From an uncultured Alphaproteobacteria bacterium (GTDB lineage: Bacteria > Pseudomonadota > Alphaproteobacteria > Rhizobiales > Ancalomicrobiaceae), in assembly GCA_937864925.1 (NCBI GenBank), contig CALMFH010000153.1:1-64000 (forward strand): a DNA stretch of 64,000 nucleotides, in the 5' to 3' direction. Positions 5,888 through 21,029 of the stretch are shown here, one piece after another. Position 1 is the first letter of the stretch. The number at the start of each line of letters is the position of its first letter. A program made the translations under genes and the position numbers. Below the pieces are notes generated by a model. The model saw only the letters and a list, made by a program, of their open reading frames with translations, had not been told where the DNA came from and did not search any database.

Positions 5888-5888
5888 C

Positions 5889-5912
5889 GCCGGAGGGGCG
5901 TCCCTCTCCGGC
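5889..5912. terminator. Hairpin between convergent smpB and SH3-like gene
   Basis: GCCGGAGGG (5889-5897) pairs with CCCTCTCCGGC (5902-5912) with one bulged base and a GCGT loop. It fills the 31-bp gap between two convergent genes and probably terminates both. Confidence 0.5.
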
Positions 5913-5918
5913 CTCGCC

Positions 5919-6701
5919 TCACAGCAGCGCCGACACGAAGGTGGTGAGCACCCACCCCGCCGGCCCCTTCTCGAAGCACAGGCTCCAGTCCGCCGGGTCG
6001 CCGGTCTTCTCCATCGGCACCCAGCCGATCCGGCCGTTCGGCAGGACGATGCTCGAAAAGCCGTTCTCCTCGTCGCTCTGTCTGAGCCGGTAGAGGAGCC
6101 CCGGCGTCAACGTCGCCACCACCTTCGCCGTGGCGTCGGCCGAGGCCCGCGCCGCGACCTTCTCGGTGACGTAGACGCCACGGTCGCCGCCGAGACCGGC
6201 CCTCGCTGCCGCCTTCGCGTCCCAGCGCACCCCGCGCACCGTACACCACGCCCCCGGCACCCGCGGATCGCGTCCCCACTTCGCCGCGGCGAGCCGATCG
6301 CCGATCGTCGTCATCGCGGTCTTCACCCGCGACGCGGTCCAGTCGATCGTCTTGCCACCGGGCAGCACCGGCTCGCCCTCGGTGTAGGCGAGCCCGATCT
6401 CGGCGAGCGCCGGGACGGCATCCTTGAACGGCCCTTTCGTCTCCACCGAGCGCGGCACTCCGAGCGTGACCCCCGCCATGACGATCGTCGGCCGATCGGC
6501 GACGAAGGCGAACACCTCCTCCACCGAATCCGCTGCGACCGCCTCGGCGACCGCCTTTGCCCGTTCGAGGAGGTCTGCCGGTGGTCGCCCGCCGGCACCG
6601 ATCTCGGCGACGAGCGGCGAGTAGGACGGCGCGGCGGCGGGCGCGGTCGAGGCGACGAAGGACAGGGCGAGGAGTCCGGCGAGGCGGAGAGCGAGAGTCA
6701 T
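5919..6701 (-). CDS. Exported SH3-like (SH3b) domain protein
   Basis: 260 residues from the chosen ATG at 6701, which begins a clear signal peptide (MTLALRLAGLLALSFVASTA). The ORF extends further upstream without signal-like sequence. The middle region is not recognised. The last ~90 residues (VYVTEKVAARASADATAKVV ... LYRLRQ ... NGRIGWVPME) resemble a bacterial SH3 domain, usually a cell-wall-binding or protein-interaction module. The predicted location is the periplasm. No catalytic motif was found. Confidence 0.65.
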   Translation of the reverse strand: MTLALRLAGLLALSFVASTAPAAAPSYSPLVAEIGAGGRPPADLLERAKAVAEAVAADSVEEVFAFVADRPTIVMAGVTLGVPRSVETKGPFKDAVPALAEIGLAYTEGEPVLPGGKTIDWTASRVKTAMTTIGDRLAAAKWGRDPRVPGAWCTVRGVRWDAKAAARAGLGGDRGVYVTEKVAARASADATAKVVATLTPGLLYRLRQSDEENGFSSIVLPNGRIGWVPMEKTGDPADWSLCFEKGPAGWVLTTFVSALL

Positions 6702-6868
6702 GTCGGCGGGATCCCGCGGTCGAGGAATTCGCGAAGCACGGCCGTGGCCATGGGCTCGTCCGGTGCTCTGGAATGCCACGACGATGCCGCGTCCGATCGC
6801 CCGAGACAACCGGTCCGTCGATGACGAATGTCGTCATGCGAGCCGGTCGCGCTTCGATCTCGGCCGTC

Positions 6869-7519
6869 CTATCGACCCATCTCGCGTGCGATCCCGTCGA
6901 ACACCGCGCGGAACATCTCGCGTGTCAGCCGGCCGGTGTTGGTGTTGTAGCGCGAGCAGTGATAGCTGTCGTGCAACCTCAGCCCCGACTTCAGCCGATG
7001 GACCGCGCCGTGCGCGAAGGGATGGGCCGTGAGCTTCTCGCCGACCGTCCGCAGGAACGTCTCGTGCGCCACCCGTCCGAGCGCCAGCACGTCGGTGAGG
7101 CCCGGATGTGCCGCCAGCGTCGCGGTGAGGAACGGCCGGCAGGCGTGGATCTCCGCCGGCGTCGGCTTGTTCTCGGGCGGGACGCAACGCACCGCGTTGG
7201 TGATCATCGCCCCCGTCAGTCGCAGCCCGTCGCCCGGATCGGCGCGGAAGGCGCCGCGCGAGAAGCCGTAAGACGCGAGCGTCTCGTAGAGGAGGTCGCC
7301 GGCGTAGTCGCCGGTGAAGGGCCGCCCCGTCCGGTTCGCCCCGCGCACCCCCGGCGCCAGCCCGACGATCAGCAGGCGCGGCGCCTCGCCGCGGAAGCTC
7401 GGCACCGGCGCGTTGAACCACGTCGGCTCCTTCCCGCGCCACTCGGCGCGAAAGGCGACGAGACGCGGGCAGAGCGGACAGTCGCGGTCCGGATCGAGTG
7501 GGGCAGGGCGGGGAGCCAT
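6869..7519 (-). CDS. Type-5 (UDGb-like) uracil-DNA glycosylase
   Basis: 216 residues from ATG 7519, which has GAGG a few bases upstream; the ORF runs on 43 codons without family similarity. Uracil-DNA glycosylases excise deaminated bases to start base-excision repair. Motif 1 reads GLAPGVRGANRTGRPFTGD, close to the family-5 form that lacks the usual catalytic Asp/Asn of other families. The second motif is HCSRYNTNTGRLT. The Cys pair in CPLCPRL plus later cysteines suits a 4Fe-4S cluster. Position between smpB and the NYN/rpoZ block is typical of Hyphomicrobiales. Confidence 0.87.
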   Translation of the reverse strand: MAPRPAPLDPDRDCPLCPRLVAFRAEWRGKEPTWFNAPVPSFRGEAPRLLIVGLAPGVRGANRTGRPFTGDYAGDLLYETLASYGFSRGAFRADPGDGLRLTGAMITNAVRCVPPENKPTPAEIHACRPFLTATLAAHPGLTDVLALGRVAHETFLRTVGEKLTAHPFAHGAVHRLKSGLRLHDSYHCSRYNTNTGRLTREMFRAVFDGIAREMGR

Positions 7520-7688
7520 CGGATGACCTCGGCAATGGGGGCGATGCGGCAGGCGCCGACCATCGAGAGGGCCGTGCCTTCCGTCAATCCCGTCGCGACG
7601 CGGATCCCGCCGCGATGCCGTGGTGGGCAAACGCGAAAACGCACCCACCCGGTCGGATGGGTGCGCCCGCGATCGCGACGGACGCGGC

Positions 7689-8297
7689 TCACGCCTCGTC
7701 GTAGTCCTCGTCGTCCTGGGCCACCTGACGGCGCTGCGCCTCGCGTTCGGCCATACGCGCCATGCGCTCTGCCGGATCGCGGCCGATTCGATTCTGCAGC
7801 GAGGCGAGGTCGATGAAGTGGTCGGCCTGTCGGCGCAGGTCGTCGGCGACCATCGGCGGCTGCGTCTGCAGCGTCGAGATCACCGAAACCTTCTTGCCCT
7901 TGCGCTGCACCGCCTCGACCAGGCGCCGATAGTCGCCGTCGCCGGAGAACAGCACCATGTGGTCGATGTGGTCGGCGATCTCCATCGCATCGACCGCCAG
8001 TTCGATGTCCATGTTGGCCTTGATCTTCCGCCGCCCCGAGGCGTCGTAGAATTCCTTCGTCGGCTTGGTCACGACCTTGTAGCCGTTGTAGTCGAGCCAG
8101 TCGATGAGCGGGCGAATCGACGAATATTCCTGATCCTCGATCAGCGCCGTATAGTAGAAGGCTCGGAGAAGATAGCTCGTCGATTTGAACTCGCTCAGGA
8201 GGCGCTTGTAGTCGATGTCGAAGCCGAGGGCCTTGGAGGTTGCATAGAGATTCGCGCCGTCGATGAACAGCGCGATTTTTTCGCGAGGGTCGAACAT
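7689..8297 (-). CDS. NYN (LabA/DUF88, PIN-like) domain protein
   Basis: 202 residues. NYN domains are PIN-like metal-dependent nuclease folds, thought to act on RNA. The acidic residues expected at the active site are visible: FIDGANL near residue 12, the Asp of NMDIELAVDAM, and FSGDGDY. The C-terminus is polar and acidic (AQDDEDYDEA). Family members sit next to rpoZ in many alphaproteobacteria, as here. ATG 8297 fits the conserved N-terminus MFDPREKIALFIDG. The specific RNA substrate is unknown. Confidence 0.88.
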   Translation of the reverse strand: MFDPREKIALFIDGANLYATSKALGFDIDYKRLLSEFKSTSYLLRAFYYTALIEDQEYSSIRPLIDWLDYNGYKVVTKPTKEFYDASGRRKIKANMDIELAVDAMEIADHIDHMVLFSGDGDYRRLVEAVQRKGKKVSVISTLQTQPPMVADDLRRQADHFIDLASLQNRIGRDPAERMARMAEREAQRRQVAQDDEDYDEA

Positions 8298-8710
8298 TTC
8301 TTCGTAGTCTTCCCATCTGGGGGTCTTCGGAGGCCTCGACGATCGGTCACGTCAAATCGAGATCGTAAGGCCGGCAATTGCACGGTAGGGTCGTCCATTC
8401 TTGTTTCTTGGCCCGACGAGAATATTCGTCGGTTTCCCACCGATGCGTAGATGACCGTACAGCAATTTGCATGCACACGCCAGCACTTCCCATGGGAAGT
8501 ACCGAAAATCCGCTTTGTCGGAACTGTCGTAGGGTGAGGTCGAGGCGCTGCCATTTCGTCGACCACGCGCCGAAGTCTCGGTGATGGGCCTCTCCCACCG
8601 GATCGCTGCACGAGCCGAGTGGATCGTCGTGTTCCGGTCGCTATGGCGTTGCTTTTCGGCGCGTCACGACGTATGTCTCCGCTTTCGAAGACCCCCCGAG
8701 GAGTTGAGGA
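8298..8710. other. Divergent NYN/rpoZ intergenic region with two palindromes
   Basis: 413 bp without a convincing gene, lower in GC than its surroundings. It contains an interrupted inverted repeat (CCGACGA 8413-8419, TCGTCGG 8426-8432, spacer GAATAT) and a perfect 16-bp palindrome ACTTCCCATGGGAAGT at 8485-8500. Both are operator-like, but no regulator can be assigned. Confidence 0.6.
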
Positions 8711-9091
8711 ATGGCCCGCGTCACCGTCGAAGACTGCATCGACAAGGTGGAGAACCGGTTCGAGCTCGTGCTTCTGGCGAGCCACCGCGCCCGCATGATC
8801 TCGTCCGGCTCGCCGATCACCGTCGATCGCGACAACGACAAGAACCCGGTGGTCGCGCTGCGCGAGATCGCCGACGAGACCATCAGCCCGGACGATCTCC
8901 AGGAGGAGTTCATCCACTCGCTGCAGAAGTTCGTCGAGGTCGACGAGCCGGAGCCGGAGACGGTGCCGATGGTGCCGGTCGCGGCCTCCGCCGACGACGA
9001 CGGCGAGATGCAGTTCGACCGCATGTCGGAAGAGGAACTGCTGCGCGGCCTCGAAGGTCTGGTGCCGCCGGACAAGGAAGAAGAGGACTGA
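8711..9091 (+). CDS. rpoZ: RNA polymerase omega subunit
   Basis: 126 residues. The N-terminal omega domain ([20 protein letters not shown], then [11 protein letters not shown] and VVALREIAD) promotes assembly of the polymerase core and contributes to ppGpp binding. The ~60-residue acidic tail (EPEPETVP ... [11 protein letters not shown] ... DKEEED) is longer than in E. coli but usual in alphaproteobacteria. It is followed by rsh about 200 bp downstream, the conserved rpoZ-spoT order. GAGGAG lies upstream of ATG 8711. Confidence 0.97.
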
Positions 9092-9143
9092 GCCTCGAGG
9101 CTCGTCCCGTCCGCCGAGAGCGACGCAACGCCGCACCCCGGCT

Positions 9144-9167
9144 CGACGCCCGCTTCGGCGGGCGTCG
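9144..9167 (+). terminator. UUCG-tetraloop terminator after rpoZ
   Basis: A perfect 10-bp stem (CGACGCCCGC and GCGGGCGTCG) closes a TTCG tetraloop about 50 bp after the rpoZ stop. Only a weak T-containing tail (CCGTTCG) follows. It probably separates rpoZ and rsh transcription, at least partly. Confidence 0.65.
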
Positions 9168-9288
9168 CCGTTCGTCGGGGTCCGGAAGCCATTCGACGTC
9201 TTGGGTTTTCCCGATTCCTTCTGCTACCATCGTCGCCCCGTGTCGCGCACCGCCGACGTGGGCTGCGCGAGGAAGGATCGATCCCCGG

Positions 9289-11505
9289 ATGATGCGGCAA
9301 TACGAACTCGTCGAGCTGGTCCGGCGCTACAATCCGAACGTCGACGAGGCATTGCTCGACAAGGCCTACGTCTACGGGATGATGAAGCACGGCCCGCAGA
9401 AGCGAGCCTCCGGCGATCCCTACTTCTCCCACCCGCTCGAAGTGGCGGCCATCCTCACCGACATGCGGGTCGACGACGCCACCATCGCGGTGGCGTTGCT
9501 GCACGACACCATCGAGGACACCGATGCCACCCGCGACGAGATCGACGCCAAGTTCGGCGGCGAGATCGGCGAACTGGTGGAGAGCCTCACCAAACTCGAG
9601 AAGCTCGACTTCGTTTCCAAGAAGACCGAGCAGGCGGAGAACTTCCGCCGCCTGCTGTTGGCGGTCGCCGCCGACGTGCGGGTGCTGCTGGTCAAGCTCG
9701 CCGACCGCCTCCACAACATGCGCACCCTCCAGTTCATGCGCGAAGACAAGCGCCTGCGCATCGCCGAGGAGACGATGGAGATCTATGCACCGCTCGCCGG
9801 GCGCATGGGCATGCAGTCGATGCGCGAGGAACTCGAGGATCTGTCCTTCCGCTGGCTCCAGCCCGACGGCTACCAGGGCATCACCGCCCGTCTGGCGGCG
9901 TTGCGCGAGGAGAACAAGAACCTCATCCCCGCCATCGAGCAGGCGCTGACCGAGAAGCTTTCGTCGAACGGCATCATCGCCAAGGTCAAGGGCCGCGAGA
10001 AGAAACCCTATTCGATCTTCACCAAGGTGCAGCGCAAGAACCTTTCCTTCGAGCAGCTCTCCGACATCTTCGGATTCCGGGTGGTGGTCGACACGGTGGA
10101 GAACTGTTACCGGGCGCTCGGCATCGTCCACACCACCTGGTCGATGGTGCCGGGTCGGTTCAAGGACTACATCTCGACGCCGAAGCAGAACGACTATCGT
10201 TCGATCCACACCACCGTGGTCGGGCCGGGGCGCCAGCGCGTCGAACTGCAGATCCGCACCGAGGAGATGCACCGCTTCGCCGAATACGGCATCGCCGCCC
10301 ACGCCCTCTACAAGGACGGCGATCGCACCATCGGCGGCCGCAACATCCAGAAGCTCTCCGAGGCGTCGGGCGCCTACGCCTGGCTACGCGAGACCATCCA
10401 GCGTCTCAACGACCCCAACCTCGCCCCCGAGGAATTCCTGGAGAACACCAAGCTCGAGCTGTTCCAGGATCAGGTCTTCTGCTTCACCCCCAAGGGCAAG
10501 ATCATCGCCCTGCCGCGCGGCGCCACCCCGATCGACTTCGCCTATGCCGTCCACACCGACGTCGGCAACACCTGCGTCGGCGCCAAGATCAACGGCCGCA
10601 TCAAGCCGGTGATGACCGAACTGGGCAACGGCGACGAGGTCGAGATCATCCGCTCCAAGGCGCAGGTGCCACCCGCCGCCTGGGAGCAGATCGCGGTGAC
10701 CGGCAAGGCCCGCGCCGCCATCCGCCGTGCCACCCGCGACGCGGTCAGGAAGCAGTTCGGCGGCCTCGGCCGGCAGATCCTGGAGCGTGCCTTCGAGCGG
10801 GCGGGGCGCGACTTCTCCGACCCGATTCTCGCCGGCGCCATCCATCGCCTCGGCCATTCCTCGATCAACGAGGTGCTGGCGGCGGTCGGCCGCGGCGAGA
10901 TCGCCTCCGACAGCGTCTTGAAGGCGGTCCACCCCGAACTGGTCGACAAGCGCGGTCAATTGCCGAAACCCGCCAGCGGCGAAGGCTGGTTCGAGGCCGG
11001 CGCCTCGGGCGTGATGAAGTTCCGCGTCCCCGACGGCGGCTCCGACGATCGCACCGCCATCCCGATTCGCGGCCTCTCCGGCGACCTTCCGGTGCGCTTC
11101 GCCCCCGAAGGCGGCGCCGTGCCGGGCGATCGCATCGTCGGCATTCTGACGCCGGGGGAGGGCATCACCATCTACCCGATCCAGTCGCCGGCGCTGAAGG
11201 CCTTCGACGACCATCCCGAGCGTTGGCTCGACGTGCGCTGGGACATCGACCCGGCCGCCCCGTCGCGCTTCCCGGCGCGCATCTCGCTGTCGTCGCTCAA
11301 CGAGCCCGGCTCGCTCGCCCAGATCACCCAGGTGATCGCCGACAACGACGGCAACATCGACAACATCAAGATGATCCCCAAGGCCGCCGACTTTCACGAG
11401 ATCATCATCGACCTCGAAGTCTGGGACCTGAAGCACCTGACGCGGATCATCCAGCAACTCCGGACGAAGCCGATCATCGCGTCGGCGACGCGGGTCAATG
11501 GGTGA
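9289..11505 (+). CDS. rsh: Bifunctional (p)ppGpp synthetase/hydrolase, RelA/SpoT homologue
   Basis: 738 residues from ATG 9289; the open frame extends far upstream but without homology, and MMRQYELVELVRRYNP is the conserved family start. It makes and degrades the alarmone (p)ppGpp. The N-terminal HD hydrolase domain has YFSHPLEVA and the HD pair in LLHDTIED. The synthetase domain has RFKDYISTPKQNDYRSIHT. A TGS domain follows (CFTPKGKIIALPRGATPIDF), and a C-terminal ACT domain ends the protein (NIDNIKM). Intact HD and synthetase motifs argue for both activities. In related genomes rsh is followed by pyrE/acpS/lepB; here it is not. Confidence 0.96.
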   Translation: MMRQYELVELVRRYNPNVDEALLDKAYVYGMMKHGPQKRASGDPYFSHPLEVAAILTDMRVDDATIAVALLHDTIEDTDATRDEIDAKFGGEIGELVESLTKLEKLDFVSKKTEQAENFRRLLLAVAADVRVLLVKLADRLHNMRTLQFMREDKRLRIAEETMEIYAPLAGRMGMQSMREELEDLSFRWLQPDGYQGITARLAALREENKNLIPAIEQALTEKLSSNGIIAKVKGREKKPYSIFTKVQRKNLSFEQLSDIFGFRVVVDTVENCYRALGIVHTTWSMVPGRFKDYISTPKQNDYRSIHTTVVGPGRQRVELQIRTEEMHRFAEYGIAAHALYKDGDRTIGGRNIQKLSEASGAYAWLRETIQRLNDPNLAPEEFLENTKLELFQDQVFCFTPKGKIIALPRGATPIDFAYAVHTDVGNTCVGAKINGRIKPVMTELGNGDEVEIIRSKAQVPPAAWEQIAVTGKARAAIRRATRDAVRKQFGGLGRQILERAFERAGRDFSDPILAGAIHRLGHSSINEVLAAVGRGEIASDSVLKAVHPELVDKRGQLPKPASGEGWFEAGASGVMKFRVPDGGSDDRTAIPIRGLSGDLPVRFAPEGGAVPGDRIVGILTPGEGITIYPIQSPALKAFDDHPERWLDVRWDIDPAAPSRFPARISLSSLNEPGSLAQITQVIADNDGNIDNIKMIPKAADFHEIIIDLEVWDLKHLTRIIQQLRTKPIIASATRVNG

Positions 11506-11511
11506 GCGACG

Positions 11512-11543
11512 GTTCGATCTCGCGCCTGGGCGCGAGGTCGAAC
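11512..11543 (+). terminator. Terminator hairpin after rsh
   Basis: A 14-bp stem (11512-11525 with 11530-11543, one G-U pair) and a CTGG loop begin 6 bp after the rsh stop codon. A second small stem (ATCGCCC-GGTG-GGCGAT) follows. There is no strong U-tract. Confidence 0.65.
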
Positions 11544-11726
11544 GAGATCGCCCGGTGGGCGATTGCCTGAACAATGGATTCAACAGTTCGGTATGTCCGA
11601 CCTGCCCATTTTCGCTCGTGGCGTCTCATGGGCTTTCGCGGCGATTGTCCAACCGGGAGCGGCTTCGTAATCGGCATGCCGCCCCCGGATCGGCTTCTTC
11701 GAGTTCCGGATGTCGTAGAACCGCGC

Positions 11727-12124
11727 TCAGTGGCCGTGCCGGTGGTGGGATAGGGAGAGTGGGCGTGGGCCCGCGGCGTATGGCGGTGGAGATGCGCATG
11801 GGGCTCGCTCACCGGTCCGTCGTGGACGTACGCGTGACGTTCGTCGCGAGAATGTAGGTGATCGTGCTCGATCTCGTCGTGGGCATGGTCGTGCTCGTGG
11901 CGTTCGCTCGGATGCAGCCGGAGGCCGATCGCCATGAGCGCCGCAGCGAGGCCGAGCCAAGGTGGCGCGGCGCCCGGATGAAGAGCACGAGGCCGACGCC
12001 GACGGCGAAGAAACCGAGCAGTCCGGCGAGACCTCGGCGACGAGGAGCTTCGCCTCCGGCGTCGTCGTCCAGAAGAGAAGCGCGGAGCCGAGCGCCAGCG
12101 GTACGCCGGGCCACAGATGGTCAT
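11727..12124 (-). pseudogene. Multiply frameshifted small membrane protein with His-rich tail
   Basis: Pieces of one protein are scattered over three frames in the right order. MTI is followed, after a shift, by WPGVPLALGSALLFWTTTPE (first membrane segment). In another frame comes GLAGLLGFFAVGVGLVLFIR (second segment). In a third come GLAAALMAIGLRLHPSERH and the His/Asp-rich run HEHDHAHDEIEHDHLHSRD. The last piece is SLSHHRHGH and a stop, back in the first frame. At least four frame changes occur in about 400 bp, so no intact protein can be made by normal reading. Short membrane proteins with such His-rich tails occur in Hyphomicrobiales and may bind Ni/Co/Zn, but the family is not named with confidence. 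It lies just downstream of chrA. The pieces could also reflect poor base calling. Confidence 0.7.
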
Positions 12125-12211
12125 GTCGGTCGCCACCATCGTGATCCCTCCCTCGCTCCCGAGATCGGTCGGTTTCCGGCTCCGCTTCGACGGCGTGGTG
12201 AAGCGGACGCC

Positions 12212-13570
12212 TCAATGCCAGAGTGACACCGCCAATCCGATGAGAGCGCATCCGGTGATCACCCTGACCACGCTCTGCCGGAAGCGGAACAGCGCCACCG
12301 TGGCGCCGAGCGCGATCGCCGCCGAGATCCAGTCGAAGCGGCAGCCCCAGCCGTCGGGCCACAGCACGTGGCCGCCGAAGAACAGGGCGAGGTTGAGGAT
12401 CACCCCGACGACCGCCGCGGTGATCGCGGTCAGCGGCGCGGTGAACTCGATGTTGCCATGGGTGCTCTCGACCAGCGGCCCGCCGGCGAGGATGAAGACG
12501 AAGGACGGCAGGAAGGTGAACCACGTCACCAGGACCGCCCCGGCCAGCGCCGCGACGAGCTTCGCCTCCGGCCCGAACGGCGCCTCCGTCCAGCCGCCGA
12601 CGAAGCCGACGAAGGTCACCACCATGATCAGCGGCCCCGGCGTCGTCTCGCCGAGTGCCAGACCGTCGATCATCTGGGTCGGGGTCAGCCAGCGGTAGTG
12701 GCCGACCGCACCCTGGTTGACGTAAGGCAGCACCGCATAGGCGCCGCCGAACGTCAGCAGCGCCGCCTTGGTGAAGAACCAGCCCATCTGGGTCAGCGTG
12801 TGGTCCCAGCCCAGGGCCACCGTCAGGCTCGCCATCGGCGCCAGCCACAGCGCGAAACCGCCGGCCACCACCAGTACGAGCCGTCCCCAGGCGAAGCGGG
12901 CATGCGGCGGTGGCGGCGTCGCGTCGTCGATCAGCGCGGTGCCCCAGCTCTTACCTGCCGCGCCGTGCCCCCCGCCGGCGTGGAAGGCCTGCGGCAGCAG
13001 CCGCGAACCGACCCAGCCGGCGAGCGCAGCGAGTCCGACGATGGCGGGGAACGGCACGTCGCAGACGAAGATCGCGACGAAGGAGGCCACCGCGATCCCC
13101 CACAGAACGCGGTTCTTCAAGGACCGCATGCCGATGCGGTGGGTGGCCTGGAGGACGATGGCGGTGACCGCCGGCTTGATGCCGAAGAACAGGCCCGCGA
13201 CCAGCGGCACGTCACCGAAGGCGCAGTAGATCCACGAGAGCGCGATCAGCACGAACAGCGACGGCAGGACGAAGAGGCCGCCGGCGACGATGCCGCCCGC
13301 CGTGCGGTGCATCAGCCAGCCGATGTAGGTGGCGAGCTGCTGCGCCTCCGGTCCGGGCAGGACCATGCAGTAGTTGAGGGCGTGGAGATAGCGGCGCTCG
13401 GAGATCCAGCGCCGCTCCTCGACCAGTTCGCGGTGCATCAGGGCGATCTGGCCGGCGGGGCCGCCGAAACTCAGGCAGCCGATCTTCAGCCACAGGGCGG
13501 CGGCCTCGGCGAGGCTCGGGGCCGCCGGGCGCTCGGCGACAGCGGCGGGTGAGGAGACGGGGTCGGTCAT
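12212..13570 (-). CDS. chrA: Chromate efflux transporter ChrA
   Basis: 452 residues with two homologous membrane halves, the long-chain ChrA form. ChrA expels chromate from the cytoplasm. The N-terminal half has the signature WLKIGCLSFGGPAGQIALMH followed by ALNYCMVLPGPEAQQLATYI. The second half repeats it as WFFTKAALLTFGGAYAVLPY and GLALGETTPGPLIMV. A His/Gly-rich linker separates the halves. ATG 13570 follows a GAGGAGGG ribosome-binding site and lies 10 bp after the chrB-like stop, so the two genes form an operon. Confidence 0.95.
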   Translation of the reverse strand: MTDPVSSPAAVAERPAAPSLAEAAALWLKIGCLSFGGPAGQIALMHRELVEERRWISERRYLHALNYCMVLPGPEAQQLATYIGWLMHRTAGGIVAGGLFVLPSLFVLIALSWIYCAFGDVPLVAGLFFGIKPAVTAIVLQATHRIGMRSLKNRVLWGIAVASFVAIFVCDVPFPAIVGLAALAGWVGSRLLPQAFHAGGGHGAAGKSWGTALIDDATPPPPHARFAWGRLVLVVAGGFALWLAPMASLTVALGWDHTLTQMGWFFTKAALLTFGGAYAVLPYVNQGAVGHYRWLTPTQMIDGLALGETTPGPLIMVVTFVGFVGGWTEAPFGPEAKLVAALAGAVLVTWFTFLPSFVFILAGGPLVESTHGNIEFTAPLTAITAAVVGVILNLALFFGGHVLWPDGWGCRFDWISAAIALGATVALFRFRQSVVRVITGCALIGLAVSLWH

Positions 13571-13580
13571 GGCGCCCTCC

Positions 13581-14399
13581 TCACTTCACCCGCCGATCGG
13601 CCGGCCAGTCATGGGTCTCCTCGACCGCGTCGCGGCACCAGCGATAGAGCGCGTCGTAGAGCACCATGCTGGCGTCGAGTTGCTCGAGGTCGTCGCGATA
13701 CATGCGCGAGAGGCCGAGCGAGGCGGCGAGGAGGCCGGCGGCCTGCGGGGCGAGATCGTGACGATCGGTGTCGGCGCCGCGGATGATCGTCGCCAGACGG
13801 GCGAGCGCTTCCGAGGCGAGGCCGAACTCGTCGAGCATCGTGTCGAAGGTGCATCGTTCGCCGCGATGGCTCCAGAAGGCACCGTCGATGTCGAAGGGCG
13901 CGGCGCCGAACACCTCGGCGACGGCCGGCACCTCCGCCGCATCGACGTAGAGGAAGAGCGCACGGGGGTCGACGAAGCGGCGGATCAGCCAGGGGCAGGC
14001 GATGCGGTCGATCTTCGGCCGGGCGCGGGTGACCCACACGCTGCGACCCTCGGCGTCGCGCGGCGGCAGCGCCGAGCGGTCGACGAGGAGCGCCCCGGCG
14101 TCGCGCCAGGCGACGAAGCCGCCCTCCAGCGTCTCGGCGCGAATGCCCTCGGCGCGCAGCCGGGCGGCAGTGCCCTGCGCCAGCTTGCCGCCCTTCTGGC
14201 AGGCGACCACCACGCGGCGGCCGGCATAGAGCGGTGCCCAGGCCGCGACGGTGCGCGGGTCGCGGTGGTCGGCGGCGGGAAGCGATCGCGGGTCGCCCGC
14301 GACGTCGTCGTCCAGCCGCACGTCGACGATCGTCGGCGCGGCGGGGGTGCCGACGAGCCGGGCGAGTTGGGTGACGGAAATCTCGGTGTTGGAAGGCAT
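13581..14399 (-). CDS. Rhodanese fused to ChrB-type chromate resistance domain
   Basis: 272 residues from ATG 14399, which is preceded by AGAGGGAT. Residues 1 to ~110 form a rhodanese-like domain (SVTQLARLVG, IVDVRLDDDV, and the cysteine loop ACQKGGKLAQG). The rest is the ChrB C-terminal domain (WVTRARPKIDRIACPWLIRR, FDIDGAFWSHRGERCTFDTM), found in regulators and sensors of chromate resistance. The usual N-terminal half of ChrB is absent and replaced by the rhodanese. It lies immediately upstream of chrA and is probably co-transcribed. A role in chromate sensing or reduction is inferred from context. Confidence 0.85.
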   Translation of the reverse strand: MPSNTEISVTQLARLVGTPAAPTIVDVRLDDDVAGDPRSLPAADHRDPRTVAAWAPLYAGRRVVVACQKGGKLAQGTAARLRAEGIRAETLEGGFVAWRDAGALLVDRSALPPRDAEGRSVWVTRARPKIDRIACPWLIRRFVDPRALFLYVDAAEVPAVAEVFGAAPFDIDGAFWSHRGERCTFDTMLDEFGLASEALARLATIIRGADTDRHDLAPQAAGLLAASLGLSRMYRDDLEQLDASMVLYDALYRWCRDAVEETHDWPADRRVK

Positions 14400-14599
14400 G
14401 CGCGTCCATCCCTCTTGCAAGGCCGGTGGACGCGATCTTTGGGCCGAGGCCTCACGGGGTAGTCGCGCGAGACCCCCTGGGGATCGCACTTAGCGCGGCG
14501 CGAAGCGGAGGGCAAGCGCCGCGCAGGGGCGCCGCCGGCTCGAACGAAGAACGGCCGACCGAGGCTCGCGCTTCGATCGGCCCGAGGTGGGAGGCATTG

Positions 14600-14624
14600 C
14601 CGGCGGGTTCTCGTTGCCCGCCGG
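14600..14624 (-). terminator. Hairpin after the electron-transfer operon
   Basis: CCGGCGGG (14600-14607) and CCCGCCGG (14617-14624) form an 8-bp GC stem 15 bp past the last gene of the leftward operon. No T-tract follows. The rest of the gap to the rhodanese-ChrB gene shows nothing recognisable. Confidence 0.5.
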
Positions 14625-14638
14625 TCGGGGGCGTTCGA

Positions 14639-15703
14639 TCACTTGTCGAAGATCAGGTGGAGCGGCTCGCGCACCTGAGCGTGGCGGACCTGGGCATTGT
14701 CGAAGAAGGCGACGCCGAAGCCGTAGACCTTGGCGAGGTCGGAAAACTGCACGTCGAACTTCGAGGCGGTGGTCAGCGGCCGCTCGATCAGGATCGTCCA
14801 CTTGCCGGCCTTCCACTTGGCCGAGGTCTTGATCACGCCGCGGTCACCGGTGAAGGGCTCGACCAGGATCGAGGCGACCTCGTCGCCGGCGACGTACTTC
14901 GCATCGTCGAAGGGCGCCTTGTCGGCCTCGCGCAGCCAGTAGGTGCCGCCCTTGTTCGCGGCTTGGCCGGACTTGTTCATGAACTCCGGCTTGCCGTCGA
15001 CCAGCTTGATGTCGGCATAGCCGCCGCCGGTCTTGGCGTCGGACTTGCGGCCGGCTTCGGGCGCCTTCGCCGCGTCGAAGCGGGTGCTGTCGAGATACTG
15101 GTTGTCGATCTGGCCGAGGAAGCCGCCACGGACGTACTTCAGATGCCAGATGTCGCCGAGTTCACCCTCGTCCTCGGTGTACTTGTTGCCGTAGGGTTTG
15201 CCCGGCTCGCCGGCGTGGCACGAGGCCTGGCAGCCGAACTTCTCGTCGAAGCCGAAGATCGAGTGGTCGATGTTCCAGATGATGGCGAGCTTGTCCTCGT
15301 AGAACTTGTTGTTGTCGCCGCCCTTGTCCTCCGGGTCGACGAGCTTCTTCCACGAGCCGTCGGCCTGCTTGACGAAGGGACTGCGGCGCACCGACAGAGT
15401 CGGGTCGTCGTAGGTGATGCGCAGCCAGATCGACTTGGCGTCGTAGGCGGCTTGGATCGTGCCGGTGGTCTCGCCGAGGTTGTCCTTGAAGTTGACGCCC
15501 TTCTGCGCCTTGAGGGCAGTGGCCGGGGCCTTCTCCCAGACCCCGGTTGCGACATCGGCGTCGAGCGTCGGGGCGGCGGCGGCCTTGACCGCATGGACCG
15601 GGACGGGCTTCAGCGGAACCTTCTTCTCTTCTTCGCCGAGAGCGGCGCCGGCGAGGAGCGAGAGCGGCAACACGAGGGCGGCGGTGCGAAGCAGGGTCTT
15701 CAT
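14639..15703 (-). CDS. Exported ethylbenzene-dehydrogenase-gamma-like haem protein with CxxxCH
   Basis: 354 residues with a signal peptide (MKTLLRTAALVLPLSLLAGA). The body resembles the haem-b-binding gamma-subunit fold of ethylbenzene dehydrogenase and related DMSO-reductase-family enzymes: AAYDAKSIWLRITYDD near residues 85-100 and the late segment WTILIERPL. It also contains GCQASCHAGE, a CxxxCH motif that could bind a c-type haem covalently. It is the third gene of the operon after the seven-haem cytochrome and the cytochrome b. An extracytoplasmic electron acceptor or donor role is inferred. No molybdopterin catalytic subunit is encoded nearby. Confidence 0.75.
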   Translation of the reverse strand: MKTLLRTAALVLPLSLLAGAALGEEEKKVPLKPVPVHAVKAAAAPTLDADVATGVWEKAPATALKAQKGVNFKDNLGETTGTIQAAYDAKSIWLRITYDDPTLSVRRSPFVKQADGSWKKLVDPEDKGGDNNKFYEDKLAIIWNIDHSIFGFDEKFGCQASCHAGEPGKPYGNKYTEDEGELGDIWHLKYVRGGFLGQIDNQYLDSTRFDAAKAPEAGRKSDAKTGGGYADIKLVDGKPEFMNKSGQAANKGGTYWLREADKAPFDDAKYVAGDEVASILVEPFTGDRGVIKTSAKWKAGKWTILIERPLTTASKFDVQFSDLAKVYGFGVAFFDNAQVRHAQVREPLHLIFDK

Positions 15704-15738
15704 GATCGCGTTCCTTCTCTTCGGGTGCGCGGCGAGGA

Positions 15739-16353
15739 TCACTCCTCGTGCCAGCCCGTGATCATCATCTTGAAGAGCGAGGTGGGTCGGACACCGGTGG
15801 TGCCGAGGTAGATGTGCGCCAGCATGAACAGGATCACGGCGGCGCCGGAGAGGTAGTGGAGCATCGCCACCGGCAGCAGGCCGTCGAGGCCGAAGACCTT
15901 GGCGGGGGCGAGATCGGGGAAGAGGAAGACGACGCCGGTGAGGATCACGGTCGGAACGACCAGATACATGATCACCCAGTAGACGATCGCCTGAAGGGCG
16001 TTGAAGTTGGCTTCCTTCGTCGGCGGATAGGGATGCGGCGCGCCCCGGAAGATGCCCCAGCCGTAGAAGACGATCTGCTTCCAGCAGCGGGCGAAGACGC
16101 CCGGCGGCTTCGGCACGTATTGCCACCAGTTGCCGGTGACGATGTTGGCGAGCACGAAGAAGCCGTAGGCGACGAGCAGGGCCACACCGGCGATGTCGTG
16201 GAACTTCGCGGCGAGGCTGAAGGGCACGAGATAGAGGCCGGGATCGGCGAAGTGCAGGCTCGCGCCGGTCACCGCCAAGACGATCATCAGCGCGGCGTTG
16301 GTCCAGTGCCAGATCCTGAGCCAGGGCGGCAGGAGATAGATGCGATGGCTCAT
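15739..16353 (-). CDS. Membrane cytochrome b (b561 / formate dehydrogenase gamma-like)
   Basis: 204 residues, four to five hydrophobic segments. Haem-ligand-like histidines are visible in WLRIWHWTNA, KFHDIAGVALL, AMLHYLSGAAV and LAHIYLG. This matches the cytochrome b561-type subunits that exchange electrons between the quinone pool and periplasmic haem proteins. Its ATG overlaps the stop of the multihaem cytochrome gene by four bases (ATGA), implying translational coupling. The predicted role is quinol dehydrogenase/quinone reductase of the operon. Confidence 0.87.
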   Translation of the reverse strand: MSHRIYLLPPWLRIWHWTNAALMIVLAVTGASLHFADPGLYLVPFSLAAKFHDIAGVALLVAYGFFVLANIVTGNWWQYVPKPPGVFARCWKQIVFYGWGIFRGAPHPYPPTKEANFNALQAIVYWVIMYLVVPTVILTGVVFLFPDLAPAKVFGLDGLLPVAMLHYLSGAAVILFMLAHIYLGTTGVRPTSLFKMMITGWHEE

Positions 16354-17345
16354 GACGTCCTCCTGCGGCGGAAGAAGGCCATGACGATCCGCACCGCCCC
16401 GTGGCCGAGGAGCCCGGCGACGGTGAGCCCGAACAGGGCGATCACGGCGCGATCGATCAGCGGATGGCGGGTGGCGCCGACGACATAGGCCGAGCCGAGA
16501 ACCGAGGCGTTGGCGAAGCCGAGGTCGGTGCCGACGTTGGCGGCCGAGAAGCGATAGAGGCGAGTGGCGAGCGCCGAGTCCTGCGAATGACAGGTGAGGC
16601 AGGCCTTCTCCGCCTTGTCCTTGCCGAGGATCTCGTGAGAGGTGGCGAGGCTCTTCACCGGCGACATCGGCGTGTGGCACTCGATGCAGCGCACCGCCGA
16701 CCAGTGCAAGCGGGCGTTGGGCAGGAAATCGTGTGTCGCGTAGAGGTCGGGCCGGACCTTCTTCGTCGGCAGCACGGCCGAGAACGAGGCGTAGCGCAGA
16801 TCGGAATTGTGGCAGTCGACGCACATGGCGTTGTCCTGCGCCACGATCTTGCGCGGATCGCCGACCTTCACGGCCACTTTGTAGACGTGCGGGTCGTGAC
16901 AGGTCTGACAGGTGAACTTGTCCGCGAGGTTCTTGGCGTGGACCGAGTCCTTGAACTGGGTCTCGACCCGGAGCGCCTTGGTGGCGTGGCACTCGCCGCA
17001 CTCGCTGATCGCCTTCTTGGCTTCGGGCGCGTGCGGGAAGGCGACGTAGCCCTGGCCGTGGCAGATCTTGCACTCCATCCCGGTGTGGTTGGAGCCGTCG
17101 AACTGCTTGGGGTCGTGGATGGTCTTCGCCAGCGCCGCGAGGTCCATGTCGGCGCGCGGCGGGTTCTTCAGCCCCGCCTCGGTATGGCAGGCGTAGCATT
17201 CGGCGTTGGAGGTGCGGATCTTCTCGATCAGCGCCGGATCGGTCGGCGCCGCGCCTTTGACGTCGGCGGCGTTCGCCGCTCCCAGTGCGGCCGCGAACAG
17301 CGCGAGGGCGAAAGCGGCGAAGAGCGATGGCGAGGCGGACCTCAT
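16350..17345 (-). CDS. Seven-haem c-type cytochrome with C-terminal membrane anchor
   Basis: 331 residues with a signal peptide (ending GAANAAD). Seven CxxCH motifs are present: CYACH, CKICH, CGECH, CQTCH, CVDCH, CIECH and CLTCH. A hydrophobic segment near the C-terminus (VIALFGLTVAGLLG) and a basic end (FFRRRRTS) anchor it with the haem domain in the periplasm. Motif spacing and DPHV-type residues suggest a relative of tetrathionate-reductase/NapC-like or doubled-CxxCH cytochromes, without a precise match. It is the first gene of the three-gene operon behind a sigma-54-type promoter. Confidence 0.9.
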   Translation of the reverse strand: MRSASPSLFAAFALALFAAALGAANAADVKGAAPTDPALIEKIRTSNAECYACHTEAGLKNPPRADMDLAALAKTIHDPKQFDGSNHTGMECKICHGQGYVAFPHAPEAKKAISECGECHATKALRVETQFKDSVHAKNLADKFTCQTCHDPHVYKVAVKVGDPRKIVAQDNAMCVDCHNSDLRYASFSAVLPTKKVRPDLYATHDFLPNARLHWSAVRCIECHTPMSPVKSLATSHEILGKDKAEKACLTCHSQDSALATRLYRFSAANVGTDLGFANASVLGSAYVVGATRHPLIDRAVIALFGLTVAGLLGHGAVRIVMAFFRRRRTS

Positions 17346-17378
17346 GAGGCGTTCCCCCTTCCGGTCGAAGGGAGAACC

Positions 17379-17393
17379 GCAAGTCCCGGGCCA
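17379..17393 (-). promoter_or_regulatory. Sigma-54 (-24/-12) promoter of the cytochrome operon
   Basis: On the minus strand the sequence reads TGGCCC-N5-TTGC, with GG and GC at the exact -24/-12 spacing of RpoN promoters (consensus TGGCAC-N5-TTGCA). It lies 34 bp before the start codon of the seven-haem cytochrome gene, giving a predicted leader of about 20 nt. An NtrC-family activator gene is directly upstream. Confidence 0.75.
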
Positions 17394-17467
17394 GTCCGGT
17401 GGAATTCCGGAAGTCGCTGTTTCGCGTCGCTTTCTCGGGATCGCGCGAGGGACGGCCGGGCGGGCGA

Positions 17468-17489
17468 CCTGTCACGATTTCGCGACAGG
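17468..17489. promoter_or_regulatory. Candidate enhancer (UAS) inverted repeat for the NtrC-type regulator
   Basis: CCTGTCACGA-TT-TCGCGACAGG is a 22-bp inverted repeat with 9 of 10 matched positions per arm. It is centred about 85 bp upstream of the -24 element, the usual distance for an activator that loops to RpoN polymerase. It also lies 5 bp past the regulator's stop codon, so it might double as a weak terminator. Confidence 0.6.
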
Positions 17490-17494
17490 TGTCG

Positions 17495-18874
17495 TCAATC
17501 GATGACGATGCCCCAGCGCTTCATGCGGACGTAGAGGTTCTGCCGCGGGATGCCGGAGAGCCGTGCTGCTTCCGAGACGTTGCCGCCGGCCGCGACGAAG
17601 AGGCGACGCAGGTAGTCCTGCTCGAAGCCCTCGCGGGCCTCGCGATAGGCGGCGACGTCGTGGCCGCCCGCCTCGGCGCCGGCCGGCGCGACGCCGACGG
17701 GCGCCGCCGCCGGCTCGATCACCGCGGCGACGTGGGAGACGTCGATCGGCCCACCCGGGTGCAGCGCCACCAGCCGCTCGATGGCGTGTTTCAGCTGGCG
17801 GACGTTGCCGGGCCAGGCCTGGGCTTCCAGCAGCCTCAACGCCTCTGGCGACCACGGGCCGACCACACGGCCGAACTTCGCCTGGAAGTGCTCGAGGAAG
17901 TGGGTGGCGAGCAGCACCACGTCGCCGGCCCGCTCGCGCAGCGGCGGTAGGCGCAGCACCACGACGTTGATGCGGTAGAAGAGGTCCTCGCGGAAGGCCC
18001 CGGTCGCCACCAGCCCGGCGAGCGGCCGATTGGTCGCGGCGATCAGACGGAAGTCGCTCGACCGTCGCTCGGTCGAGCCGACCCGCGAGAAGCAGCCGTC
18101 CTGAAGGACGCGCAAGAGCGCCGACTGCAGCTTGGGGCTCATGTCGGCGATCTCGTCGAGGAAGAGCGAGCCGCGGTCGGCCTTTTCGATGGTGCCGGCC
18201 GTGGTCTTGGCGGCGCCGGTGAAGGCGCCCTTCTCGTAGCCGAAGAGCAGGCCCTCGAGCAGGCTCTCGGGCAGGGCTCCGCAGTTGACGTCGAGATAGG
18301 GGCCGCGCCCTCGCCGGCTCTCGGCGTGGATCAGCCGGGCGACGACGTCCTTACCGGTGCCGCTCTCGCCTTCCAGCAACACGGTGGTGTCGAGCGTCGC
18401 CACTTGCCGGATCTGGTCGACGAGGCGGGTCATCGCCGGCGAGGTGGCGATCAGCCTCGGCCCGGCGACCGCCGCCTGTAACCGATCGATCTCGCGATAG
18501 GCGCGGTCCATCTCCAGCGCCTTGTCGATGACGCGTTCCAGGTCGTCGAGATCTTCGAAGGGCTTGGTGCGGTAGTCGAAGAGCCCTTCGCGCACCGCCC
18601 GCATCGCGTCGCGCACGTCGGCGTGGCCGGTGATCATGATCGCCACCATATGCGGCTTCTGCGCACGGAACTCGCGCAGGAGGTCGAGACCGTCGGCGTC
18701 GGGCAGGCGTTGGTCCATCAGGATCAGATTGAAGTCGTCCGCCGCGAAGGCCGCGCGAGCTTCCGTTCCGGTCTCGGTGAGGGTCAGCACCTCGCACCGA
18801 TCGCGCAACAGCCCGTCGAACAGGGTCCGCGTGAAGTGGTCGTCGTCGACGACGAGGATCCGGGGCTTCGTCAT
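17495..18874 (-). CDS. NtrC-family sigma-54-dependent response regulator
   Basis: 459 residues. The receiver domain has phospho-acceptor Asp54 (LILMDQRLPD) and the acidic pocket VVDDD. The central AAA+ domain has the Walker A GESGTGKD, the sigma-54 contact loop GAFTGA, and a Walker B ending SLFLDEIADM. The C-terminal Fis-type helix-turn-helix reads NVSEAARLSGIPRQNLYVRM. It activates RpoN promoters. Its ATG overlaps the kinase stop by four bases. The nearest sigma-54-type promoter is that of the cytochrome operon immediately downstream, its most likely target. Confidence 0.94.
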   Translation of the reverse strand: MTKPRILVVDDDHFTRTLFDGLLRDRCEVLTLTETGTEARAAFAADDFNLILMDQRLPDADGLDLLREFRAQKPHMVAIMITGHADVRDAMRAVREGLFDYRTKPFEDLDDLERVIDKALEMDRAYREIDRLQAAVAGPRLIATSPAMTRLVDQIRQVATLDTTVLLEGESGTGKDVVARLIHAESRRGRGPYLDVNCGALPESLLEGLLFGYEKGAFTGAAKTTAGTIEKADRGSLFLDEIADMSPKLQSALLRVLQDGCFSRVGSTERRSSDFRLIAATNRPLAGLVATGAFREDLFYRINVVVLRLPPLRERAGDVVLLATHFLEHFQAKFGRVVGPWSPEALRLLEAQAWPGNVRQLKHAIERLVALHPGGPIDVSHVAAVIEPAAAPVGVAPAGAEAGGHDVAAYREAREGFEQDYLRRLFVAAGGNVSEAARLSGIPRQNLYVRMKRWGIVID

Positions 18875-20667
18875 GCGGCACTCTCGTCGGGGGCTCGCGG
18901 GGCGACGGAGACCGCCTCCGGCAACCACAGAGCAAGAGACGCACCACCTTCCTGCCGGTTGGCGGCGCCGACCTCGCCCTCGTGCAGCAGCACGATGTGC
19001 TGCACCACCGCGAGGCCGAGGCCGGTGCCCTCCTTGCGCGTCGTGAAGAACGGCGTGAACAAGCGGCGCATGGCGTCGTCGGAGATCCCCGGGCCGTCGT
19101 CCTCCACGGTGAAGCGCCAGCCGGGCCGGCCGTCGGCATGGGCAGCTTGCGCCAGAGAGATGCGAACCCGACCTCCTTCGCCGGTCGCCTGGGCGGCGTT
19201 GGTGAGCAGGTTGAAGATAGCGTGTCCGAGCAGGTTGGGATCGACGACGGCGACGGCGGGAGCGTCCGGCATGACGCGTTCGATCGAGACCCTGCGGCCG
19301 ATGCTCTGGTTGAAGAGCGCGAGCGCCTCGTCGGCGATCGCGCGCAGGTCGGTCGGCCGGCTGTCGAAACAGGAGACCTTGGTGAAGTCGAGCATGCGCT
19401 TGACGAAGGCGGAGCAATTCTGACCGGCCTTACGGATCTCGCCGAGCATCTCGCGCACCCGATCCGGCTTGTCGACCGAGCGCTCGGCGAGCTGCGCCAT
19501 GTTGACCACCCCGACCAGCGGATTGTTCAGCTGGTGGGCGATCTCGCCGACCATCGTGCCCATCGCCGAGAGCTTCTCCAACCGGACGATGCGTTGGTGT
19601 TCGTCGGAGATGGTCAAGAGGCGATGCTCCAGCTCGTGCTGACGTCGGTAGGCGGCTTCGACGCCGGCGAGCGCTCGGTTGAACGAGAAGAAGACGGCTG
19701 CGCCCGCGGCGAGGCTCGCCAGGGTGGCGAGGATCATCCAGTAGGTGAAGGTCGCCTGGGCGCGGCTGCGGTCGGCGAAGATCGCCAGGACGCCGACCGC
19801 ACGCCCCGAGGCGTCGCGGAGCGGCGCGGTGGCCACCGACAGCGGCCCGCCGCTGGTCTGAACCGTCCGGATCGATCCGTCGTACAGAAGCTCGGGGAAG
19901 AGTGCCCGTTCGGCCGGGAGCGTTTCGGGCGACGACTGCGACACCAGGATGTGGTCACCGAATTCGAGGTGGCGAGCCGGCTGCCCCGACATGCGCCGCC
20001 CCTGTCGCCAGATCGTCGGATCGGTCGTGTCGCGGCGGATCAGGGCGTAGAGGTGAACGCCGAGCGACAGGCCGGTATCGGCGAGCAGCGGACCGATCTC
20101 CTCGCCCAGTTCGATGAGGCCGATGGTCGCCCCGTCGTGTTTCCACGGCGTCACCGAACGCAGGGTCAGCGTACCGAATGGGCCGAGTTCGATGCCGGCG
20201 CTCGGTGCGCCCGTCTCCGCCGCCGTCCGGGTGGTGAAACGGTCGATGAGATCGCCATGGGTCTCCGGCTCGTGCATGCGCAGCACGTTCACTCGGTCGA
20301 GACCGGTGAAGTAGAGATGGGTGATGCGGTGGTCGCGGCGGAGAGTGTCGAAGAGCGGCCCGACCGACGACCGCAGCCGGTCACGATCGCGCATCTGGAA
20401 GGCATGGGCGATCTCGTCGGAGGTGCCGAGCGCCGCGACGGTCGCCCGCATCAGTCCCGTGGCCGTGTCGATCTTCTGGGCGAGCAGGGTCTCGACCGAG
20501 CGGACCGCGGCGGAGAATTCGTCGTCGCGGGTGCGCCGCTCGATGATCCAGACCGTCATGACGAAGGCGACGACGACGAAGGCGATGAGCCCGGCGAGCC
20601 GCGCCAGGATGTGGCGCCGGACCGGCGGAGTCGCGATGTCGTTGCCGCTGCGCCTGCCGAGCGCCAT
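18871..20667 (-). CDS. Membrane sensor histidine kinase with periplasmic sensing domain
   Basis: 598 residues from ATG 20667, which has GGGGATC upstream; another in-frame ATG at 20706 lacks a ribosome-binding site. Two membrane helices (about residues 20-40 and 305-327) enclose a ~265-residue periplasmic region that looks like a double-Cache/MCP-type ligand domain. The H-box (MVGEIAHQLNNPLVG, His near 375), N-box (NLLTNAAQA) and G-boxes (DDGPGIS, GTGLGL) are intact. It pairs with the following response regulator and resembles DctB-type kinases that sense small molecules outside the membrane. Confidence 0.92.
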   Translation of the reverse strand: MALGRRSGNDIATPPVRRHILARLAGLIAFVVVAFVMTVWIIERRTRDDEFSAAVRSVETLLAQKIDTATGLMRATVAALGTSDEIAHAFQMRDRDRLRSSVGPLFDTLRRDHRITHLYFTGLDRVNVLRMHEPETHGDLIDRFTTRTAAETGAPSAGIELGPFGTLTLRSVTPWKHDGATIGLIELGEEIGPLLADTGLSLGVHLYALIRRDTTDPTIWRQGRRMSGQPARHLEFGDHILVSQSSPETLPAERALFPELLYDGSIRTVQTSGGPLSVATAPLRDASGRAVGVLAIFADRSRAQATFTYWMILATLASLAAGAAVFFSFNRALAGVEAAYRRQHELEHRLLTISDEHQRIVRLEKLSAMGTMVGEIAHQLNNPLVGVVNMAQLAERSVDKPDRVREMLGEIRKAGQNCSAFVKRMLDFTKVSCFDSRPTDLRAIADEALALFNQSIGRRVSIERVMPDAPAVAVVDPNLLGHAIFNLLTNAAQATGEGGRVRISLAQAAHADGRPGWRFTVEDDGPGISDDAMRRLFTPFFTTRKEGTGLGLAVVQHIVLLHEGEVGAANRQEGGASLALWLPEAVSVAPRAPDESAA

Positions 20668-21029
20668 GGACGTGATCCCCGATGCCTTTCTCCGCTCAGA
20701 TAGCATGAGAGGCGCCGTCGGGGGAAAACGTATGGCCCACCCGTTCGCGAGTTGGTCGTTCGGATGGCTGCCGACGGGGTCTGCGTCGACGTTTCTGGTT
20801 TCACGAGCAGCGACGCCAGTGTCCGAGATGGAGATCTGCGCGGTCCGATCCCCAAAATGGCCTCGGCATCGTGTGCCGCTCCTCTCGGACCGATCTTTCA
20901 GAGTCGTCCATCGCCGGCGATGGTGGTCGCCGGCATCGAACGCTCCTGTTGCGGCTCGGCATGGACGGCGAAAGCCGGCTCGTGTCTTACTTGGTCGACC
21001 TGGACGCAGACCTTCTTCGCGGAGATCCC
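20668..21029. other. Divergent gap between kinase and racemase-like gene
   Basis: 362 bp. Several open frames cross it, but they are GC-rich shadows without a ribosome-binding site or recognisable protein. No promoter, palindrome or RNA was identified. Confidence 0.4.

Follow-up and report, generated by a model that had tools for sequence, protein, structure and literature searches.

Two soluble c-type cytochromes of Azospira suillum, NapO and PcrO, serve as electron carriers between the tetrahaem quinol dehydrogenases NapC and PcrQ and the reductases NapAB and PcrABC (PMC5845722). The authors of that work describe both carriers as homologues of the ethylbenzene dehydrogenase gamma subunit; they are required and interchangeable, and double deletions abolish growth on nitrate and perchlorate (PMC5845722). 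In this report, we compare these systems with a locus in 64,000 nucleotides of DNA (contig CALMFH010000153.1; hereafter "the window") from an uncultured alphaproteobacterium of the Ancalomicrobiaceae. Its core is a three-gene operon, "the trio", that encodes a heptahaem c-type cytochrome (CYC), a cytochrome b561-type membrane subunit (CYB) and an exported EB_dh-domain protein (EB); a sensor histidine kinase (HK) and an NtrC-family activator (RR) are encoded next to it. We found that the trio is a real, conserved and specifically regulated unit, with known parts in a known logic, for which no described, named system was found. It is rather probable, in our view, that this unit serves anaerobic respiration as a regulated, exchangeable electron relay, passing electrons from quinol through CYB, CYC and EB to a periplasmic reductase.

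Like NapC-NapO and PcrQ-PcrO, the trio would pair a membrane quinol dehydrogenase with a soluble periplasmic c-type cytochrome of the EB_dh family, and it would likewise be a modular, exchangeable set that feeds periplasmic oxyanion reductases. This shared two-part logic is why we favour the path described above. The differences are considerable. The quinol dehydrogenase of the trio would be a b561 protein with a heptahaem cytochrome, not a tetrahaem NapC/NirT protein; NapO and PcrO are, by their descriptions, dihaem, whereas EB has one CX3CH haem motif; and the trio comes with its own dCache_3 kinase and sigma-54 activator, usually with no reductase alongside.

In the mechanism that we propose, quinol would be oxidised by CYB, and the electrons would pass to the membrane-anchored heptahaem CYC, then to the soluble mono-haem EB, and from there to one or more periplasmic terminal (oxyanion) reductases. 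EB would play the part of NapO/PcrO, and CYC-CYB that of NapC/PcrQ. In some Betaproteobacteria, the reductase would be an arsenate-respiration-type molybdoenzyme from the same gene run; in the window organism, it would be encoded elsewhere or be of a kind yet to be recognised. From a TGTC-N10-GACA site, the dCache_3 kinase and the NtrC-type activator would turn on sigma-54-dependent transcription of the operon. We infer the direction of the electrons, the identity of the partner and the signal. An earlier note on this DNA had traced a path from the quinone pool through cytochrome b and a multihaem cytochrome to the EB_dh protein; our analysis supports a regulated operon that encodes such a path. 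Electron transfer from a quinol dehydrogenase by EB_dh proteins has already been described for NapO/PcrO (PMC5845722).

Conservation and control of the operon

All of the elements lie between 20670 and 14639, on the minus strand, in the order HK, RR, palindrome, promoter-like site, CYC, CYB and EB (Table 1), and the CYC and CYB genes overlap by one base. The same elements had been read from the sequence in the earlier note. Pfam matches and motifs confirm the sensor kinase and the activator, whose intact GAFTGA motif is at residue 216; the inverted repeat and the -24/-12 promoter are present between the activator and the operon, the latter with 9 of 11 consensus bases; and Pfam matches, motifs and the conserved order bear out the operon of a seven-CxxCH cytochrome, a cytochrome b and an EB_dh protein. 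The note did not recognise this three-gene set as a described system, and we found no report of it in the literature searched.

Table 1. Features of the locus in the window
Feature	Position	Strand	Remarks
HK, sensor histidine kinase	18871-20670	minus	start ATG at 20667; dCache_3, HisKA and HATPase_c (Pfam)
RR, NtrC-family sigma-54 activator	17495-18874	minus	receiver, sigma-54 AAA+ and Fis-type HTH_8 (Pfam)
Palindrome ACCTGTCACGATTTCGCGACAGGT, 24 bp	17467-17490	none	core TGTC-N10-GACA; predicted RR site (enhancer)
-24/-12 promoter-like site TGGCCCGGGACTTGCG	17378-17393	minus	GG-N10-GC
CYC, exported heptahaem c-type cytochrome	16350-17345	minus	seven CxxCH
CYB, cytochrome b561-type membrane subunit	15739-16353	minus	PF01292 (Ni_hydr_CYTB), E=7e-22
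EB, exported EB_dh-domain protein	14639-15703	minus	PF09459, 128.3 bits

A scan of species genomes for EB returned 28 loci. In about 20 alpha- and betaproteobacterial loci, we read the order CYC-CYB-EB, the CYC and CYB genes either overlapping or lying almost end to end; the hosts include Pinisolibacter, Siculibacillus, Magnetospirillum and other alphaproteobacteria, and Propionivibrio, Rhodoferax and other betaproteobacteria. HK orthologues are located directly upstream of RR in four related loci of the same family (65-86% identity) and are found in six betaproteobacterial loci (44-45%), and RR orthologues occupy the same place in ten loci (62-93%). Across alpha- and betaproteobacteria, with protein identities of 43-96%, the order of the genes, the one-base overlap of CYC and CYB and the layout of the regulatory elements are retained, which is more than chance. 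Few genomes have an EB homologue: 2 of 385 sampled alphaproteobacteria and 4 of 398 from the phylum. Such homologues occur in 13 of 250 genomes from the family of Propionivibrio soli and in 6 of 15 from the window's own family, including all three sampled species of its genus.

The distance matrices of CYC, CYB and EB correlate with each other (Mantel r 0.67-0.82, 19 loci; none of 2000 permutations reached these values), and those of the trio correlate with those of the regulators (r 0.86-0.97, n=11). Because shared ancestry accounts for much of this correlation, it demonstrates joint inheritance rather than physical contact.

The regulatory sites follow the regulators. In each of the 11 assessable loci with adjacent HK and RR genes, the 18-bp core TGTC-N10-GACA is found 128-157 bp upstream of CYC, and the fuller palindrome is roughly TGTCRC...RYGACA; none of the eight trio loci without adjacent regulators has the core. 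In shuffled-sequence controls, the looser pattern TGTC-N6-14-GACA occurred in 0.3-6% of shuffles. A -24/-12-like site is present about 45-55 bp upstream of CYC in these 11 loci. The window's copy was matched by 2 of 300 shuffles. Most related loci have a strong site (9-11 of 11 consensus bases), and two, L080 and L019, have a weak one (8 of 11; 11% and 28% of shuffles, respectively, did as well). The hallmarks of NtrC-type sigma-54 two-component control, namely a GAFTGA loop, a conserved upstream palindrome and a -24/-12 site, are all in evidence. The conservation of these sites, a sequence criterion, supports sigma-54 control of the operon, and we infer that its expression is sigma-54-dependent.

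The haem proteins and their relatives

The N terminus of EB resembles a signal peptide, and the protein has a single CX3CH motif (C158, C162 and H163), which had been missed in the earlier note. This motif is invariant in 21 aligned sequences, including those from Chloroflexi and Methanoperedens; hence, EB itself is predicted to bind haem c, and we regard it as a putative mono-haem c protein. Its membership of PF09459 is clear (gathering cut-off, 33.3 bits), and its AlphaFold model (predicted local distance difference test score, pLDDT, 80) has the EB_dh fold, with NxrC (7b04_C, E=3e-10) and EbdC (2ivf_C, E=1e-7) as the best Foldseek matches. The haem site cannot be placed because residues 163-173, just after the motif, are poorly modelled (pLDDT <50). 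EB shares domain and fold with EbdC, NxrC and the gamma subunits of type II dimethyl sulfoxide (DMSO) reductases. Unlike them, it falls far under the TIGR03477 cut-off for DMSO reductase type II gamma (20.9 bits; cut-off, 169.85), carries a covalent haem-c motif, and is not encoded with type II alpha and beta subunits, no genes for which were found in the window neighbourhood. That score and those missing neighbours led us to reject EB as a DMSO reductase type II haem b (gamma) subunit. Methanoperedens archaea (L027:8752-9969 and L028:9914-11038) have EB homologues with CX3CH and a C-terminal transmembrane tail, and without CYC or CYB.

CYC also begins with a signal-peptide-like segment. Its CxxCH motifs, at residues 50, 92, 116, 146, 175, 220 and 249, are all invariant in aligned relatives, and its C-terminal transmembrane helix, the putative anchor, bears an invariant His315. 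The structure model is of low confidence (mean pLDDT 53), and this helix (residues 295-330) was the sole part of it that we used. A sequence search of the PDB gave weak multihaem matches only, and profile matches were confined to Cytochrome_C7/C3-type families. With its seven haems and C-terminal anchor, CYC does not have the features of a NapC/NirT quinol dehydrogenase (Cytochrom_NNT, tetrahaem, N-terminal anchor).

In CYB, His16, His52, His166 and His180 are invariant in 17 aligned sequences and occupy b561 positions. We rejected an identity as part of a PhsABC thiosulfate reductase: CYB scored 158.4 bits against the PhsC-like profile NF011582, under the cut-off of 204, and no phsA or phsB was found in the window neighbourhood. 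PhsC, and the b561 proteins that accompany octahaem cytochromes of the tetrathionate-reductase family, resemble CYB as b561 membrane partners of periplasmic multihaem proteins, a likeness reflected in the PhsC-like profile match. They differ from it in that this match is under the curated cut-off and in that CYB is accompanied by EB and by an NrfB/DmsE-like cytochrome with seven haems. One such octahaem cytochrome (TIGR04315, 595 bits) is encoded with a b561 protein, 37% identical to CYB, at L075:514-2846 (minus strand, contig C155).

CYC-CYB and EB each have other associates. CYC-type matches were found in 36 of 398 sampled genomes, and 14 of the neighbourhoods were read. CYC-CYB occurs without EB in many other proteobacteria, paired with an octahaem cytochrome weakly resembling the tetrathionate-reductase family; genes for an ankyrin-repeat protein and a sigma-54 activator often come before this set. 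In L166-L178 (e.g., L172:7659-12466, plus strand), the activator, the ankyrin-repeat protein, CYC-type and CYB-type proteins and an octahaem cytochrome of about 715 amino acids recur together; no report of this gene set was found in the literature searched. The window genome itself has a second CYC-CYB pair (contig C262, minus strand; L052:17118-20000 and L053:1-7149), in an operon with an 849-amino-acid molybdoenzyme, an Fe-S subunit, a dihaem c-type cytochrome (125 amino acids) and TorD, and with its own PhnD-type sensor/kinase/activator set. The molybdoenzyme scored 248 bits as PhsA and 168 bits as ArrA, both under the cut-offs. Since this pair sits with a molybdoenzyme, CYC-CYB appears to be a reusable quinone-side module.

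EB-type proteins adjoin NapC/NirT-type cytochromes in L131, L019/L134 and L025 (in the last as a c-type cytochrome, NapC and EB), and the regulators of the EB-like/NapC operons of L131 and L019/L134 are kinases and activators akin to the trio's own. At L131:1281-6153 and L134:17677-20000 (both plus strand), the operon beside that of the trio is paralogous and comprises kinase, activator, a dihaem EB_dh protein (CxxCH and CX3CH) and a NapC-type cytochrome. Only two EB_dh proteins are encoded in the window genome: EB and a 610-amino-acid fusion of a NapC/NirT tetrahaem cytochrome with EB_dh, in a nirS-type denitrification cluster (L054:7597-9426, minus strand, contig C155).

Candidate terminal reductases

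The earlier note had found no catalytic subunit beside the operon in the window and had spoken of no known enzyme. The former statement is correct. The latter does not hold in general, because the trio directly precedes arrA-arrB-torD-type genes, on the same strand, in four betaproteobacterial loci (L010, L014, L015 and L016); moreover, the second CYC-CYB pair of the window genome sits with a molybdoenzyme. The four loci encode an ArrA-family enzyme of about 854 amino acids, an ArrB-like Fe-S protein and a TorD-like chaperone. The signature motif of ArrA is (R/K)GRY and that of ArxA is GRGWG (PMC6549141); the trio-linked enzymes have RGRY. They match ArrA in the PDB at E=1e-270, and their ArrA profile scores are 1012-1040 bits. 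As these scores are under the NCBI equivalog cut-off of 1600, arsenate is likely, rather than certain, to be the substrate; antimonate is possible. The trio would here replace CymA or ArrC, which accompany arrAB in respiratory arsenate reductase operons. In one further genome (G811), the arr cluster and the trio are on different contigs.

Neither ArrA nor ArrB of arsenate respiration is encoded in the window, and the best match in its genome is an ArxA-type protein on another contig, in a separate arx-like cluster with its own ArxC. This cluster (L052, i.e., contig C262 14001-34000; genes at 5809-16182, plus strand) encodes ArxX/S/R-like proteins, an Fe-S protein, the ArxA-type enzyme (826 amino acids, GRGWG), ArxB, an ArxC-like protein of the NrfD type and an ArxD-like protein. 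Two sister genomes were searched and had no arx-type match. Given this result and the dedicated ArxC, we rejected the genome's own ArxA as an obligatory partner of the trio. The candidate acceptors in the window genome are the ArxA cluster and the second CYC-CYB molybdoenzyme operon (both on C262) and a cluster with Cld-family and type II proteins on contig C265.

The relay draws its support from the retention of the trio as a unit, the covariation of its three proteins, the arrAB linkage, the reuse of CYC-CYB with a molybdoenzyme and with octahaem cytochromes, the placement of EB_dh proteins beside NapC/NirT types, the Azospira genetics and the conservation of the regulatory site. Several facts weigh against it. 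Most trio loci have no reductase gene nearby. A constant association of the trio with a described enzyme, which would have told against the earlier note, is not what we see: ArrA-type enzymes occur in only five trio genomes, and we rejected ArrA as a universal partner on that basis. EB is often found without an adjacent quinol dehydrogenase gene (L024, L065, L066, L128 and L130). Further, its sequence, with a mono-haem CX3CH and a low TIGR03477 score, makes EB a distant relative of NapO/PcrO at best. Finally, P. soli (L008/G800) has a divergent PhnD-type sensor/kinase/activator set beside its trio, and a survey limited to molybdoenzymes showed no obvious periplasmic partner among its four PF00384 proteins, which are NasA/Fdh-like, BisC-like and, as assigned by eye, NarG and NuoG.

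Competing explanations and significance

The lack of an obvious partner in P. soli keeps alive an alternative that we consider unlikely, although the strongest of the rivals: EB, or CYC, would itself be a terminal, molybdenum-independent reductase whose CX3CH haem reduces a soluble periplasmic oxyanion or metal; the trio would then be complete in itself, as a system for respiration or detoxification. Two Propionivibrio metagenome-assembled genomes and one from Rhodospirillales have few or no candidate molybdoenzymes, but absences from such assemblies are weak evidence. Several genomes, and Methanoperedens, have EB on its own, and about 60 of its positions are invariant across the 21 sequences, archaea included, which is many for a mere carrier; also, the third gene after CYC-CYB elsewhere encodes the octahaem cytochrome with a weak likeness to the tetrathionate-reductase family. 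Against this, NapO and PcrO, the EB_dh relatives with genetics, are carriers, and the arrAB linkage argues for a downstream enzyme. The specific proposal that EB is a molybdenum-free terminal reductase fed by b561 and heptahaem c and induced by its own sensor, so that the trio would constitute an entire undescribed anaerobic respiration, is slightly less likely again.

A reversed relay would oxidise a periplasmic donor at or through EB and deliver the electrons to the quinone pool, as in ethylbenzene dehydrogenase or nitrite oxidoreductase; this seems improbable. It would accord with the closeness of the EB fold to NxrC and EbdC, subunits of oxidising enzymes, with the TauE/SafE anion-exporter genes near four trio loci, and with the DsrE-like and ArsR-like genes beside one. 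The recurrent partners, however, are quinol-oxidising NapC-type or b561 proteins, and the trio-linked ArrA has the arsenate-reducing RGRY motif, not GRGWG.

Less probable still is that the trio of the window organism feeds the (per)chlorate-reductase-like cluster on C265 (L180:9565-15273, minus strand). There, a Cld-family protein is followed by DMSO reductase type II alpha and beta subunits, a TorD-like chaperone (delta) and a monohaem c-type cytochrome; no gamma, PcrC, PcrQ or PcrO gene was found in the cluster, and EB and the NapC-EB_dh fusion are the genome's only EB_dh proteins. Its alpha subunit is near-identical (84-98%) in three other trio genomes (G745, G799 and G803) and occurs in 0 of 384 other sampled alphaproteobacteria (Fisher p about 1e-5, own genome excluded). 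This association is suggestive only, because habitat and ancestry are uncontrolled in it. Moreover, the cluster is not on the trio's contig, and neither the complete sister genome G744 nor most trio genomes have it.

Very improbable is a metal-resistance role tied to the chrB-like and chromate transporter chrA-like genes that come next after EB on its strand (12212-14489, minus); we excluded these genes from the system because the neighbours of EB differ in the relatives read, with copper-efflux-type genes there in close relatives, neither kind in more distant ones, and chr genes beside the trio in the window only.

The quinol-to-reductase relay gives an unnamed gene set a testable frame. EB_dh proteins are routinely annotated as hydrocarbon dehydrogenases; here, they look like dedicated haem-c carriers that ride with interchangeable quinol dehydrogenases, be it NapC, b561 with a heptahaem cytochrome, or a NapC fusion. 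The conserved regulatory site offers a direct way to search for the signal and for more members. If the relay operates as proposed, it would explain how reductases of arsenate or other oxyanions are connected in the absence of CymA or an NrfD-type subunit.

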